Source of the DNA: Clostridia bacterium
GTDB taxonomy: Bacteria > Bacillota > Clostridia > RGIG6154
DNA length: 64,000 nt
NCBI GenBank assembly: GCA_017410375.1
Contig: JAFQQW010000013.1
Span: 1 to 64,000, forward strand
Direction: 5' to 3'
A program made the translations under genes and the position numbers. Shown here one piece after another: positions 4,194 through 62,038 of this stretch. The notes under the pieces are model-generated. The model did not search any database. It worked only from the letters and a program-made list of their open reading frames with translations, and was not told where the DNA came from. The first letter of the stretch is position 1; each line of letters begins with the position of its first letter.

Positions 4194-5933
4194 TTAGAAC
4201 TTGTTTCTCTTGGTGTAGGTGGTGTGCAACAAGTCATGTGCCTTATGAGAACAGGGTTTTTCAAAGTATTCATCATAGAGCTTCTGAATAACCGGGTTTT
4301 CATGCGACTTTCTGATTGCTGCGCCTCTGTCTTCAGCATACAGTGCCTTTGCACGTTCTGCACGAATGTCAACGCCTACTCTGTCTTTTGCAGAAACGAT
4401 AGGCTGACCGCCACCGTTTACGCAACCGCCGGGGCAAGCCATAACTTCGATGAAGTCATATTTAGCTTCGCCTGCTTTAATCTTTTCGAGCAATGCTTTT
4501 GCGTTCTTAGTGCCGTGAACAACTGCAACCTTAACAGGTTTACCTGCGATGGTAAGTTCTGCTTCTTTAATACCTTCAACGCCACGGATCGGTGCGATTT
4601 CGAGGTTTTCAAGAGGCTTACCTTCTAAGATTTCGTATACAGTACGGATAGCAGCTTCCATAACACCACCGGTAGCACCGAAGATAACGCCTGCACCGGT
4701 AGCTTCACCAAAGGGAGCGTCGAATTCTTCATCAGGAAGTGCATTGAAATCAATACCTGCTTCACGAATCATCTTCGCAAGCTCTCTGGTGGTCAGAGAT
4801 GCATCGATATCCTGCTTACCGGAGCTGCTCATTTCGGGTCTCTGTGCTTCATATTTCTTGGAAGTACAGGGCATGATTGCTACAGAGTAGATATTATCCT
4901 TATTAATATTCTGCTTTTCAGCATAATAAGATTTGATTACTGCACCGAACATTTCCATCGGAGATTTTGCAGAAGAAAGGTTTTCTGTAAATTCAGGATA
5001 GTTATGTTCACAATATTTAACCCAACCGGGGCTGCAGGATGTGATAAGCGGAAGCTTTTCCTGCTTGGTGAAGCGTTCAATAAATTCTGTGCCTTCTTCC
5101 ATAATGGTAAGGTCAGCAGAGGTATCTGTATCAAATACTTTATCAAATCCAAGTCTTCTGAGTGCTGCAACCATTTTACCGGTAACAGGTGTACCCATGG
5201 GCAGACCGAATTCTTCACCGAGTGCTGCACGAACAGCCGGAGCGGTCTGTACAACAACATGCTTTTCAGGATTGTCAATTGCTTCCAATACCTTCGGAAC
5301 ATCGTTCTTTTCGTACAATGCACCAACCGGGCAAGCTACGATACACTGACCACAGAAGATACAGTTTGTATCCATAACGGGAGTGTCGAATGCACAACCA
5401 ACGGTTGTTGCAAAACCACGGTTCTGTAAACCAATTACAGAGATTGCCTGATTTGCACAAGCAGCTACGCAACGACGGCAGAGGATACATTTGTTATTAT
5501 CACGCACATAAGATGCAGAAGAAGTATCTAAAGCAAATTTCGGATCGTTTTCACCGCTGTAACGAATTTCTTCGATACCGAATTCGTCAGCCAATTCGCG
5601 AAGTTCGCAGTTTTTGTTTCTGGGGCAAGTGAGACATTTCTTTTCATGGTTGGAAAGAATAAGCTCTAAGTTTGCCTTTCTTGCTTTACGAACAGCAGGA
5701 GAATTTGTGAAAACTTCCATACCTTCGTTTACAGGATATACGCAAGCAGGCTGCAAAGTTCTTGCACCTTTAATTTCTACCATACAAATACGGCAAGCAC
5801 CAATTTTGTTAATCCCTTCCAGATAGCAAAGAGTCGGGATATGAATGTTTGCCAATCTTGCAGCTTCCAATACAGTGGAATTTGCGGGAACGCTGAATTC
5901 CATACCGTTAATTTTAATATTTACGTTTTCCAT
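4194..5933 (-). CDS. hndD: [FeFe] hydrogenase catalytic subunit (HndD/HydA type)
   Basis: A 579-residue catalytic subunit that makes or uses H2 in the cytoplasm. The start at 5933 follows AAGGAGG by 8 bases. Domains in order: plant-type [2Fe-2S] (C36, C47, C50, C64), His/Cys-ligated [4Fe-4S] (H96, C100, C103, C109), two ferredoxin clusters (C149-C159 and C191-C201), then the H-cluster domain with TSCSPGW (298-304), MPCTSKK with C355, and MACPGGC with C500 and C504, and the small-subunit tail. The first signature has Ser in place of the second Cys of TSCCPxW, a variant I recall in other multimeric hydrogenases of this type. It is last in hndA-ATPase-hndB-hndC-hndD and should act with them as an NAD(P)-linked, possibly electron-bifurcating enzyme. 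Confidence 0.95.
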   Translation of the reverse strand: MENVNIKINGMEFSVPANSTVLEAARLANIHIPTLCYLEGINKIGACRICMVEIKGARTLQPACVYPVNEGMEVFTNSPAVRKARKANLELILSNHEKKCLTCPRNKNCELRELADEFGIEEIRYSGENDPKFALDTSSASYVRDNNKCILCRRCVAACANQAISVIGLQNRGFATTVGCAFDTPVMDTNCIFCGQCIVACPVGALYEKNDVPKVLEAIDNPEKHVVVQTAPAVRAALGEEFGLPMGTPVTGKMVAALRRLGFDKVFDTDTSADLTIMEEGTEFIERFTKQEKLPLITSCSPGWVKYCEHNYPEFTENLSSAKSPMEMFGAVIKSYYAEKQNINKDNIYSVAIMPCTSKKYEAQRPEMSSSGKQDIDASLTTRELAKMIREAGIDFNALPDEEFDAPFGEATGAGVIFGATGGVMEAAIRTVYEILEGKPLENLEIAPIRGVEGIKEAELTIAGKPVKVAVVHGTKNAKALLEKIKAGEAKYDFIEVMACPGGCVNGGGQPIVSAKDRVGVDIRAERAKALYAEDRGAAIRKSHENPVIQKLYDEYFEKPCSHKAHDLLHTTYTKRNKF

Positions 5934-5946
5934 TCTTTTCCCCTCC

Positions 5947-7740
5947 TTACTTGCTGATTGCGCCAAACTTACAGGTGGATTCGCAGACACCGCACTTGAT
6001 ACACTTGGTGGTATCGATTACGTGTGCTTCCTTAACCTGACCGGAAATAGCGCCAACAGGACATTTTCTTGCACAAAGGGTACAACCCTTACATTTATCT
6101 GCATCAATTGTATAGGAAAGAAGCGACTTACATACGCCTGCACGGCACTTCTTTTCAACAACGTGTTCAACATATTCGTCACGGAAGTATCTCAAGGTAG
6201 AAAGTACCGGGTTCGGTGCTGTCTGACCCAAACCGCACATTGCGCTGGTCTTGATGGTGTTACTGAGTTCTTCCAGTTCGTCAATGTCTTCCAAAGTACC
6301 TGTACCGTCTGTAATCTTATTTAAGATTTCAAGCAGACGCTTTGTACCGATACGGCAGGGAACGCACTTACCGCAGGATTCATCCACAGTAAATTCAAGG
6401 AAGAATTTCGCGATGTCAACCATACAGGTATCTTCGTCCATTACAATCAAACCACCGGAACCCATCATGGAACCGATTTTGATTAAGGAATCGTAATCAA
6501 TGGGAGTATCAATCAAATCAGCAGGGATACAACCGCCGGAAGGACCACCGGTCTGTGCTGCCTTGAACTTCTTGCCGTTCGGGATACCACCACCGATTTC
6601 GTATACAACTTCTCTCAAAGTAGTACCCATCGGAACTTCAACCAAGCCGGTGTTGTTGATTTTGCCGCCAAGAGCAAATACTTTAGTACCCTTACTGGTT
6701 TCGGTACCGAGTTTTGCAAATTCTGCTGCACCGTTTAAGATGATAACAGGGATATTTGCATAGGTTTCTACGTTGTTCAGTACGGTAGGCTTTTCCCAAA
6801 GACCTTTAACTGCCGGGAAAGGCGGTCTCGGACGGGGTTCACCACGGTTACCTTCAATAGAAGTAATAAGCGCAGTTTCTTCACCGCAAACGAACGCACC
6901 TGCACCAAGTCTGATATCCAAATCGAAATCAAAGCCGGTGCCAAAAATATCTTTACCCAATAAGCCGTATTCTCTTGCCTGATCGATAGCAACCTGCAGA
7001 CGGTGTACAGCGATCGGATATTCTGCACGAACGTAAACATACCCCTGGTTTGCACCGATTGCATAACCTGCAATAGCCATAGCTTCGATTAAGCTGTGGG
7101 GGTCACCTTCCAGAACCGAACGGTCCATGAATGCACCCGGGTCACCTTCGTCGGCATTACACAATACATACTTCTGGTCATTTACAGACTTAGAAGCGAA
7201 ATCCCATTTCATACCTGTGGGGAAGCCACCGCCGCCTCTGCCACGCAGACCGGAATCTTTAACTTCCTGGATAACCTGTGCGGGAGTCATTTCGGTCAAA
7301 ACCTTACCGAGTGCCTTATAACCGTCACAAGCGATGTATTCGTCGATTTCTTCAGGGTTGATAACACCGCAGTTTCTTAATGCTACACGGTGTTGCTTTT
7401 TGTAGAAGTCAACTTCGTTTAAGGACTTAACATTGTTTTCGTCCACAACGGTTTCCTGATACAATAAACGTTTAACAATTTTACCCTTCAAAAGGTGCTG
7501 TTCTACGATTTCAGCAACGTCATCTTTCTGAACCATGCTGTAGAAAGAACCTTCGGGATAAACGATAACGATCGGGCCTAAAGCGCAAAGGCCGAAGCAA
7601 CCGGTCTGGATAACCTTAACTTCTTTGTCGATATCGAAATTTTTGAGCTGCGCTTCAAATTCTTCAATAATCTGCTTAGAACCGGACGAAGTACAACCGG
7701 TACCGCCGCAGACAAGAACGTGAGATCTTACGAGTTCCAT
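5947..7740 (-). CDS. hndC: NAD(P)H-binding flavoprotein subunit of hydrogenase (HndC/HydB, NuoF-like)
   Basis: A 597-residue NuoF-like subunit that carries electrons between NAD(P)H and the hydrogenase. It begins with a thioredoxin-like [2Fe-2S] domain (C11, C16, C48, C52), then the NADH/FMN fold with the Gly-rich loop GRGGGGFPTG (167-176), a [4Fe-4S] site (C456, C459, C462, C502) and a C-terminal pair of ferredoxin clusters (C550-C560 and C580-C590). The C-terminal clusters distinguish it from plain complex I NuoF. Good GGAGG site before the ATG. The gap to hndD is 13 bases and to hndB 21 bases, so they are surely co-transcribed. NAD versus NADP preference cannot be read from the sequence. 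Confidence 0.95.
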   Translation of the reverse strand: MELVRSHVLVCGGTGCTSSGSKQIIEEFEAQLKNFDIDKEVKVIQTGCFGLCALGPIVIVYPEGSFYSMVQKDDVAEIVEQHLLKGKIVKRLLYQETVVDENNVKSLNEVDFYKKQHRVALRNCGVINPEEIDEYIACDGYKALGKVLTEMTPAQVIQEVKDSGLRGRGGGGFPTGMKWDFASKSVNDQKYVLCNADEGDPGAFMDRSVLEGDPHSLIEAMAIAGYAIGANQGYVYVRAEYPIAVHRLQVAIDQAREYGLLGKDIFGTGFDFDLDIRLGAGAFVCGEETALITSIEGNRGEPRPRPPFPAVKGLWEKPTVLNNVETYANIPVIILNGAAEFAKLGTETSKGTKVFALGGKINNTGLVEVPMGTTLREVVYEIGGGIPNGKKFKAAQTGGPSGGCIPADLIDTPIDYDSLIKIGSMMGSGGLIVMDEDTCMVDIAKFFLEFTVDESCGKCVPCRIGTKRLLEILNKITDGTGTLEDIDELEELSNTIKTSAMCGLGQTAPNPVLSTLRYFRDEYVEHVVEKKCRAGVCKSLLSYTIDADKCKGCTLCARKCPVGAISGQVKEAHVIDTTKCIKCGVCESTCKFGAISK

Positions 7741-7761
7741 TTCTTATCCTCCATTTCCAAA

Positions 7762-8130
7762 TTATTCGGCTTTACCAATTGTGTATTCGTCAACAACCTT
7801 GCCGTTTACAATGTGATCGCTCACAATTTTTGCTACTTTTTCTGCTGTCATTTTAACATATGTAACTTTTTCCTGACCGGGAACATAAACTTCAACAACA
7901 GGTTCCAAACGGCAAACGCCGATGCAACCGGTCTGGGTTACAAATGCATTGGAAATATTTCTCTTCTGCAATTCTTCCACAAAAGCCTGCATAACAGGTC
8001 TTGCGCCTGCTGCGATACCGCAGGTAGCCATACCTACAACGATACGGGTTTCTTCTGCACCTTCTTTACGAAGACCAACCTTGTTTACAGTTCTGTTTCT
8101 GATTGCTTCCAAATCTGCTAAACTTTTCAT
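7762..8130 (-). CDS. hndB: Thioredoxin-like [2Fe-2S] hydrogenase subunit (HndB type)
   Basis: A 122-residue thioredoxin-like ferredoxin, the small subunit usually found between the NuoE-like and NuoF-like genes in Hnd operons. Signatures are ATCGIAAGAR (C37) and TGCIGVC (C69, C73). Only three cysteines are seen in the cluster-binding positions, so binding of a standard four-Cys cluster is uncertain. Its ribosome binding site GGAGGTG overlaps the end of the upstream ATPase gene (2-base gap), indicating tight coupling. It probably helps electron transfer or assembly in the hydrogenase complex. Confidence 0.88.
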   Translation of the reverse strand: MKSLADLEAIRNRTVNKVGLRKEGAEETRIVVGMATCGIAAGARPVMQAFVEELQKRNISNAFVTQTGCIGVCRLEPVVEVYVPGQEKVTYVKMTAEKVAKIVSDHIVNGKVVDEYTIGKAE

Positions 8131-8132
8131 TA

Positions 8133-8681
8133 CTATACACCTCCGTGAATTGATAAAATACCATCATTTATGTATTCCTGCATCCATAGAACCACCTCAG
8201 GCTCGTTGAACGGAACACCTGCCAAAACCTCCCGGATTTGCTTTGTATCAAACACAAACTCTTCTCCGTCCGAAACATGTCGGTACAGAAAATCAATGTG
8301 CTCGTTACAGGACGCGAGCGACGACATGGTCTGGGCGATATCCCCTAAAGGTACCCGGTCGATGTGGTCAAGCTTAAAGGTTGCGGTAACCACAGTCCCT
8401 ACCCCAACCTCCGATTCGATATTGAGCTTTCCTTCCGCCTGCTCTGCCGCAAGCTTCAAAAGCGGAATGCCCATCCCCACCTTTCGGGGGGTTCTCGTCG
8501 TGGTAAAAGGGTCTGTCACATTTTTCAAAAACTCGGGTGCCATACCCTTGCCGTCATCCTTGATGGTTAAGGTAAGCAGATTCTGCTTTGTGTCCTTGAC
8601 CACCGATATTTCCACCAAACTTGCGTTTGCAGAAATAGAATTCTGTGCAATATCCAGAATGTTTAAAGATAACTCTTTCAT
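8133..8681 (-). CDS. GHKL-family ATPase (histidine-kinase-like) inside the hydrogenase operon
   Basis: A 182-residue protein consisting almost only of a GHKL (HATPase_c) domain: N-box LDIAQNSI near residues 9-16, G1 box DDGKGM near 42-47 and G2 box KVGMGIPLLK near 67-76. There is no dimerisation/phospho-acceptor domain, no sensor domain and no membrane segment, so it is not a conventional histidine kinase. It sits 4 bases after hndA and 2 bases before hndB, a position I recall as conserved in many clostridial Hnd/Hyd operons. A regulatory role, for example as a protein kinase or anti-sigma-like switch linked to the hydrogenase, is an inference; the substrate is unknown. Confidence 0.85.
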   Translation of the reverse strand: MKELSLNILDIAQNSISANASLVEISVVKDTKQNLLTLTIKDDGKGMAPEFLKNVTDPFTTTRTPRKVGMGIPLLKLAAEQAEGKLNIESEVGVGTVVTATFKLDHIDRVPLGDIAQTMSSLASCNEHIDFLYRHVSDGEEFVFDTKQIREVLAGVPFNEPEVVLWMQEYINDGILSIHGGV

Positions 8682-60700: not shown

Positions 60701-61615
60701 TCAAGGAAGCATATGACCTGCCGCGCGGTAAATTTCATACCATTCGGAGCGCGAAAGCTTCACGTCCGATGCTTTACAGATTTCCGTAAGATGCTCAGGG
60801 TTCATGGTGCCAGCAATCAACTGAATGTTCGCCGGATGTCGTAAAATCCATGTCGCCGCAACGCCCGTTTTGGGAAGACCGTATTTTTCACCGATTTCAG
60901 CAAGCTTTGCATTCAGTTCCGGGAAATCATCGTTGTCAACAAAATTGCCTTTGAAAAAGCCGTACTGGAAAGGCGACCACGCCTGAATGGTTATGTTTTT
61001 TATTCGGCTGTATTCCAGCAAAGCTCCGTCATGCATAACCGACTCGGCATTTTTCATGTTCACATTCATGCCGGATGTCACTAAACCCGCTTCGGTCACC
61101 GAAAACTGAAGCTGATTGATAATTAGCGGTTGTTTCACCGCAGTTTTCAAAAGCTCGATTTGCATCAAATTATGATTGGATACGCCAAAATGCTTAACCT
61201 TTCCTGCATTTTGTAGCGCATCAAAGGCTTCAGCCACCTCTTCAGGCTCCATAAGCGTATCAGGACGATGAAGAAGCAATGCGTCAACATAGTCTACGCC
61301 AAGACGGGATAAGCTTCCGTCCACCGCTTCTAAAATATGCTCTTTTGAAAAGTCATACTGTCCGGGACGGATGGCACATTTGGTCTGAATTTTCATTTTG
61401 TCCCTCTGTCCTTTATGCCGTTTCAGATACTCGCCAAAAACCGTTTCCGCCTGACCTTTGCCGTAAATATCCGCATGATCAAAAAAGTTAATGCCCTGCT
61501 CCAAAGCCGTATCCATAATGGCATCCACTCTTTTTTCGTCCAGTCCGCCCATGCGCATGCACCCGAGCGAAACCGCCGATGCCTGAAAGGCATTTCCGAT
61601 TTTTATTGTTTTCAT
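60701..61615 (-). CDS. Aldo/keto reductase
   Basis: A 304-residue NADPH-dependent oxidoreductase of the aldo/keto reductase superfamily, YdhF-like subgroup. FFDHADIYGKGQAE carries the catalytic Asp and Tyr, CAIRPGQYDF follows with YVDALLLHRPD carrying His, and the C-terminal KLSRSEW motif ends the fold. GGAGAGGG precedes the ATG. A nearby TTACTGTAA dyad (about 61664-61673) could be a regulator site. Physiological substrate unknown. Confidence 0.93.
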   Translation of the reverse strand: MKTIKIGNAFQASAVSLGCMRMGGLDEKRVDAIMDTALEQGINFFDHADIYGKGQAETVFGEYLKRHKGQRDKMKIQTKCAIRPGQYDFSKEHILEAVDGSLSRLGVDYVDALLLHRPDTLMEPEEVAEAFDALQNAGKVKHFGVSNHNLMQIELLKTAVKQPLIINQLQFSVTEAGLVTSGMNVNMKNAESVMHDGALLEYSRIKNITIQAWSPFQYGFFKGNFVDNDDFPELNAKLAEIGEKYGLPKTGVAATWILRHPANIQLIAGTMNPEHLTEICKASDVKLSRSEWYEIYRAAGHMLP

Positions 61616-61714
61616 TTTCCCTCTCCTTTTTTTCTATCTTTGTTTTAGTCAATACGCAACACCTTACTGTAAAGACTGTATAATTTAAATGCCAATATTT
61701 TTAGCATTGCGAGT

Positions 61715-61735
61715 CATAAGGTTTAGATGCAACTT
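61715..61735 (+). repeat. Direct repeat, left copy, bounding the array
   Basis: A 21-base stretch identical to 61940-61960, part of a longer 38-base match (61706-61743 against 61931-61968) with three differences. The two copies lie 225 bases apart and flank the palindrome modules like ends of a unit. Confidence 0.8.
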
Positions 61736-61939
61736 GTTTTAGCTAAATTTTGCAACAAGTTGCAAAGCTAAATTATTTCATCTTACTCCATAGCTAAATT
61801 ACTCCTTTGGAGTAGCTAAATTAAATTCGCTTTAAGCGTGCGAAGCACATTTAGCTGCCATAGGCAATTTAGCTGAACTTGTTCAATTTAGCTCGCGATA
61901 GCGAATTTAGCTGCGTTGCTATGCAACGCAATTGCGACA

Positions 61940-61960
61940 CATAAGGTTTAGATGCAACTT
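61940..61960 (+). repeat. Direct repeat, right copy
   Basis: Identical over 21 bases to 61715-61735. It follows the longest palindrome (GCGTTGC/GCAACGC) and precedes the last module variant. Confidence 0.8.
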
Positions 61961-62038
61961 ATTTTAGCGAATTTAGTTGCGGTCGCAGGTCGCATATGGT
62001 CAATTCAAGTTGTTCAAAACAAAATCACTTATTCTGAA

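Follow-up and report, generated by a model that had tools for sequence, protein, structure and literature searches.

The array near the end of the window, the whole 64,000-nucleotide stretch of Clostridia DNA that was analysed here, is as a whole probably best explained as a solo, non-coding copy of a mobile element. We also consider it likely that this array element and the four-helix-bundle protein S23 (PF05635) form a two-part system that would work as REPs do with RAYTs, with an unrelated protein in the place of the RAYT.

Within the region 61706–61987, the array consists of four AGCTAAATT modules followed by four AATTTAGCT-type modules, with self-complementary spacers between them. Exact copies of AGCTAAATT lie at 61741–61749, 61766–61774, 61792–61800 and 61814–61822, and exact copies of AATTTAGCT at 61866–61874, 61885–61893 and 61904–61912; the first AATTTAGCT-type module, at 61848–61855, is 8 bases long and reads ATTTAGCT. 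The window contains 8 exact 9-mer matches compared with 0.86 expected (0 of 100 shuffles had as many), one of which, at 2576, is unrelated to the array. The longest fully paired stems of the seven spacers and the terminal hairpin were 7, 2, 5, 5, 3, 4, 3 and 7, which sum to 36, whereas shuffling gave 19.2 on average and never as much as 36 in 5000 trials; RNA folding of the two strands gave z = -4.0 and -4.7. The sequence-only reading had described 9-base modules alternating with palindromic spacers and had proposed comparison with shuffled sequence and folding of both strands; the alternation is real by these measures. Its order of four modules followed by four or five flipped ones holds with a flipped set of four, one of them short. 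Its claim that nearly every spacer is a perfect palindrome was too broad: palindromes are systematic overall, but the spacer at 61775–61791 (ATTTCATCTTACTCCAT) has none in the window copy (P 0.97), and several short spacers are individually unremarkable. Its exclusion of CRISPR, REP and simple repeats is upheld on the anatomy of the array, by which we also ruled out CRISPR and a plain tandem repeat, the spacers being homologous self-complementary hairpins.

All parts of the element lie on the minus strand; full copies read in this direction into the S23 gene. The array itself (61741–61912) is a solo copy of family A, subtype I, with four AGCTAAATT, a centre, four AATTTAGCT and hairpins between. 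Its terminal (5') hairpin at 61913–61929 (GCGTTGCTATGCAACGC on the plus strand) marks the GCGTTGC end class, and its tail (3' end) at 61706–61735 is of class 1 (AAGTTGCATCTAAACCTTATGACTCGCAAT on the minus strand). A second class-1 tail, at 61931–61960 on the minus strand, belongs to a neighbouring degenerate element, so that the two tails form a flanking direct repeat; the 21-base direct repeat CATAAGGTTTAGATGCAACTT (61715–61735 and 61940–61960) is part of these tails and lies outside the array. The window copy, of class GCGTTGC/CCTTATGTGTCGC, is thereby flanked on both sides by tails of its own class, with the neighbour's remnant beyond: from its sequence, 61956–61995 (minus strand, AACTTATTTTAGCGAATTTAGTTGC..) is probably what is left of a second element. 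A class-3 tail remnant (GGCATTTAAATTATACAGTCTTTA on the minus strand) lies at 61670–61693. Hairpin 2 (61775–61791, minus strand) is degenerate here, and the corresponding hairpin of other long copies has a purine internal loop on that strand. The array sits in the 5' region of a 304-aa ORF outside the element (60701–61615, minus strand), aldo/keto-reductase-like by inspection.

The array is one of 10 copies in its genome, a 2.77 Mb draft (96.4% complete) in which genome-wide counts rest on searches; the nine others are at 73–97% identity. The finding of a lone copy, which the sequence-only reading had named as a refutation, is thus not borne out. A degenerate left-arm pattern matched 92 stretches in 84,980 bacterial and archaeal species genomes. 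Among the 80 matches listed, all were in Clostridia/Oscillospiraceae/Eubacteriales MAGs, with hosts that were mostly ruminants (goat, sheep, deer and buffalo gut). No family-A copy was found among the few other genomes of its own genus and order, and a three-module pattern matched only unrelated sequences in viral contigs. Family-A copies share a common architecture with two right-arm subtypes, and some are shortened.

Pairing is conserved across these copies while sequence is not. In the left arm, the genome's own 10 copies have standard pairs in 96.6% of paired cells and show 28 two-sided changes, versus 0–6 with slid partners; in 84 distinct sequences, 97.4% are standard pairs and two-sided changes number 271 versus 18–42 in slid controls. 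Each spacer position therefore has its own hairpin, which retains its pairing as its sequence drifts, and a free choice of spacers is not supported. Such strong covariation, together with the purine internal loop on the transcribed strand and the placement of many arrays between a -10 box and a ribosome-binding site, would suit a cis-acting structured RNA: a 5' leader, transcribed on the window's minus strand, that regulates S23 and, where copied, other genes. We consider this rival reading unlikely, as an RNA helix would be expected to show more G-U on one of the strands and the stem mismatches are strand-symmetric (13 G-T versus 13 A-C), many copies lie behind terminators, the downstream genes are unrelated, and Rfam covariance models gave no match up to E=1. 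A looser count of 12 G-T versus 4 A-C in the gene direction was not upheld as a strand bias (strict count, 1 versus 1). The symmetric mismatches fit a DNA-level constraint, or template switching, better than an RNA helix, and the purine-rich loop of hairpin 2 points the other way, toward RNA. Correction of imperfect palindromes by template switching during replication is an established mutation process, and with strand-symmetric mismatches as its mark it could keep any hairpin perfect in an array without function. As a full account this is very improbable, since it leaves unexplained the invariant modules, the recurrent 4+4 layout, the matched ends and the pairing of modules with S23 clades described below; template switching may still help keep the stems perfect.

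The mobile-element reading draws on element ends and insertion sites. In genome G008, the paralogous loci L223 and L247 differ by one family-A element of about 229 bp with ATAT at both ends. At the empty locus (L223), CTAACTTGATAAAATCATAT is joined directly to AAAGAATGTCGAATTTTGG; at the filled locus (L247), CTAACTTGACAAAATCATAT is followed by the terminal hairpin GCGGTGCATAGCACCGC, the array, a tail ending in ..CAGTCTTTATAT, and then AAAGAATGTCG. The pair thus fixes the element ends, with a hairpin at the 5' side and a tail containing GCATCTAAA-like sequence at the 3' side, and its sequences indicate that the family-A element moves. It came from a flank comparison among all loci and is the single clean pair, from a draft MAG and from paralogous loci that each have other elements nearby, with loss from L223 as the alternative. 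For an S23-bearing copy, the upstream flanks differ between G021 and G031, which were compared for an empty site. The sequence-only reading had also suggested a MITE-like family growing by hairpin duplication. Dispersed copies and insertion agree with the first part, but growth by hairpin duplication is unsupported, as the 4+4 layout is largely constant among copies, whose differences are compensatory changes.

Many copies come immediately after a promoter -10 box or a terminator, in several cases that of a tRNA gene, and the kind of insertion site (-10 box, terminator or TATAT) varies by end class. Directly behind a -10 box, the tail is GTTCACTGATT (13 copies; one exception); behind a terminator it is of the CATCTATT../CTCTTCC kind (6; one exception); and a GCGTTGC/GCGGTGC hairpin is paired with a CCTTATGTGTCGC or a TATACAGTC tail (6 of each). 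In many family-A copies no tail can be recognised, or the sequence continues into S23. ATAT on both sides of the element in L247, like TATAAT at both ends of copies, may reflect target duplication, but in some other copies the 5' hexamer is unlike the 3' one. By inspection there are no terminal inverted repeats, with a hairpin at one end and an unlike tail at the other. The tail ends in the same short sequence that precedes the element's own hairpin, so elements can land side by side and form tandem sets.

Tails also occur apart from arrays. At L053 (G000:C59:116000-128000, 5750–8300) and L102 (G001:C89, 1–1810), class-1 tails alternate in one orientation with single unrelated genes (GrpB-like and others), cassette-like without an integron integrase. 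Along with the cargo gene carried by S23 copies, this layout would fit a gene-cassette system of integron type, with the tails serving as recombination sites and the arrays located inside or between them. We give that possibility very little weight: the window genome (draft, 96.4% complete) yielded no integron integrase above cut-off, the weaker matches also occur in all 14 control genomes, and the tails differ by class, match the 5' hairpin and have no common core, with no canonical attC core by inspection. Class-1 tails were also found in front of another palindromic repeat family (CTTCTCCTTGAGGAG..CACCTCATCCG; L036, L037, L040 and L041 in G000) and at the edge of a phage-like contig (L133, IMG/VR contig IMGVR_UViG_3300029305_010879, 61–78), upstream of a signal-peptide protein gene.

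The partner proposed for the mobile element is the gene that full copies carry. In about 18 of 83 scanned loci, a four-helix-bundle gene begins 24–27 nt behind the array (some copies truncated). Its product is a PF05635 protein (23S rRNA IVP / S23 / Avd-like; E=1.2e-28) and matches the solved structure 2rld (E=5.6e-31). The order of the full element is terminal hairpin, module/hairpin array, S23 gene, cargo gene in several copies, and tail with GCATCTAAA-like sequence; at L200, L218 and L228, and as a fusion at L207, one unrelated cargo ORF comes after S23 and ends near the tail. The S23 gene of full copies is under strong purifying selection (median dN/dS 0.063 in 16 A-type genes). It was not part of the sequence-only reading because it lies outside the window. 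No A-type S23 was found in the window genome, where the sole PF05635 gene found (L388, G000:C48, about 1097) is of B type, directly behind a B array, with one in-frame TGA. No mobilising enzyme for the family-A element was found. The genome has two Y1 matches, with no family-A array within 1.5 kb on either side; one, a RAYT-like gene (L117, G000:C66 near 27644), has its own palindrome GTAGGGCAGGGGCTTGCTCCTGCC inside the reading frame, and RAYT/Y1 was rejected as the family-A mobiliser.

S23 clades and array modules go together. A PF05635 search in 36 genomes gave about 100 matches, and different arrays lie upstream of different S23 clades. Scored by the best 7-mer plus complement in 340 nt, without naming a module and with a threshold of at least 5 copies, arrays occur upstream of 52 of 89 S23 genes; the downstream controls had them in 4 of 87 cases and shuffled sequences in none of 89. 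The upstream arrays often have four forward and four reverse module copies. On a tree of 85 S23 proteins with 11 label groups (ten modules plus unassigned), the labels change 13 times, close to the minimum possible of 10 and far below the shuffled mean of 58.5 (0 of 200 shuffles as low). This test of the association is strong but not blind, as labels were set by the analyst after viewing the arrays, some pool related words, and near-identical genes aid clustering. Families B (ATGAATT) and D (TCGATAT), first met beside family A, each have their own S23 clade, and 18 of the 85 genes are without an assigned module, several of them near the classical IVS type.

How such a system would operate can be outlined. 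An S23 oligomer would recognise its own module (in DNA, single-stranded or cruciform, or in the leader RNA) and would promote copying of elements that bear it; solo arrays would be derivatives carried along, by analogy with REPs and RAYTs. We know of no catalytic activity of S23, and cutting and joining are assumed to fall to a host or trans-acting enzyme. The element would probably be copied as DNA: with the 5' end immediately after the -10 box, transcription is expected to begin inside the element, and a transcript copy would lose that end. The Xanthomonas S23 protein is a pentameric ring of four-helix bundles, as cited in PMC4990558, and a ring of this kind might bind several modules simultaneously, which could be why they come as an array. 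Proteins of PF05635 occur widely, with no known function according to PMC4990558; a cognate array for each S23 clade suggests a directly testable one, the recognition of a short word. Elements at -10 boxes and terminators may also reshape transcription in gut bacteria.

If correct, this suggests a second protein/repeat partnership that works like RAYT/REP and derives from an unrelated protein. Likenesses to REP/REPIN and RAYT (PMC3733652) are dispersed structured repeats, one protein family, and solo copies that outnumber coding ones. In contrast, the partner here is PF05635 and not a Y1 transposase, and the repeat is a 170-nt AGCTAAATT module/hairpin array in which the 20–40-nt GTAG- or CGTC-footed hairpin is absent. 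MITEs are likewise short, dispersed, structured, non-coding insertions with an empty site (one pair here), whereas family-A ends are a matched hairpin and tail of different kinds and the partner gene is no known transposase. The 23S rRNA intervening sequence (IVS) with an S23 ORF, as in Coxiella (PMC4990558), shares an S23-family ORF (present in full family-A copies, absent from the window copy) in a selfish element with hairpin ends. Family-A elements differ in lying in promoters, terminators and intergenic DNA and not inside 23S rRNA, in having numerous solo copies, and in the module specificity of their arrays; selection on S23 is strongly purifying in these elements, whereas the Coxiella ORF is in decay (PMC4990558). 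Avd of diversity-generating retroelements resembles PF05635 (PMC10053308), but no template or variable repeats were seen. The open-access papers searched contain no description of an array/S23 partnership, and our claim of novelty is limited to those.

Beyond Clostridia, bacterial heptamer repeats (TAACTGA, PMC4679880; cyanobacterial STRR) are also 7-nt words in intergenic arrays upstream of genes, and S23 genes adjoin such repeats, which are plain tandem words without hairpins, unlike the Clostridia arrays. S23 is not mentioned in the TAACTGA paper, which gives no partner protein for the repeats (PMC4679880). Short tandem repeats, mostly 7-nt, flank plasmid S23 genes of Cyanobacteria, Bacteroidota and Treponema (L411–L423), including those of Bernardetia (ATTAGTG x15) and of most cyanobacteria examined (Aulosira, Nostoc, Dolichospermum, Planktothrix and Euhalothece), upstream or downstream of S23; with 16 loci and no matched-gene control, this sample counts as a lead. 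In the Coxiella rRNA IVS, tandem heptamers stand directly before S23p (PMC4990558). A link between the plasmid repeats and the unexplained heptamer repeats is possible. We suggest tentatively, at a little less than even confidence, that S23/IVP/Avd-like four-helix-bundle proteins are general repeat-pairing factors, each clade recognising its own 7–9-nt word, with elements that carry such words spreading through genomes, as chains of hairpins in Clostridia and as arrays of plain heptamers in Cyanobacteria, Bacteroidota and Spirochaetes. If so, PF05635 would gain a function, and heptamer repeats that were described without a partner protein may be explained by gaining one.

A peptide-pattern search confirmed no S23 in viral contigs; in two human-gut phage contigs, S23 lies behind hairpin chains of other modules. 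S23 also occurs inside defence-type operons (L412, L423 and L424), flanked by HsdS and HsdR in Monoglobus, by DrmD and PglX in Planktothrix, and by a helicase and an N-6 methylase in Chlorohelix.
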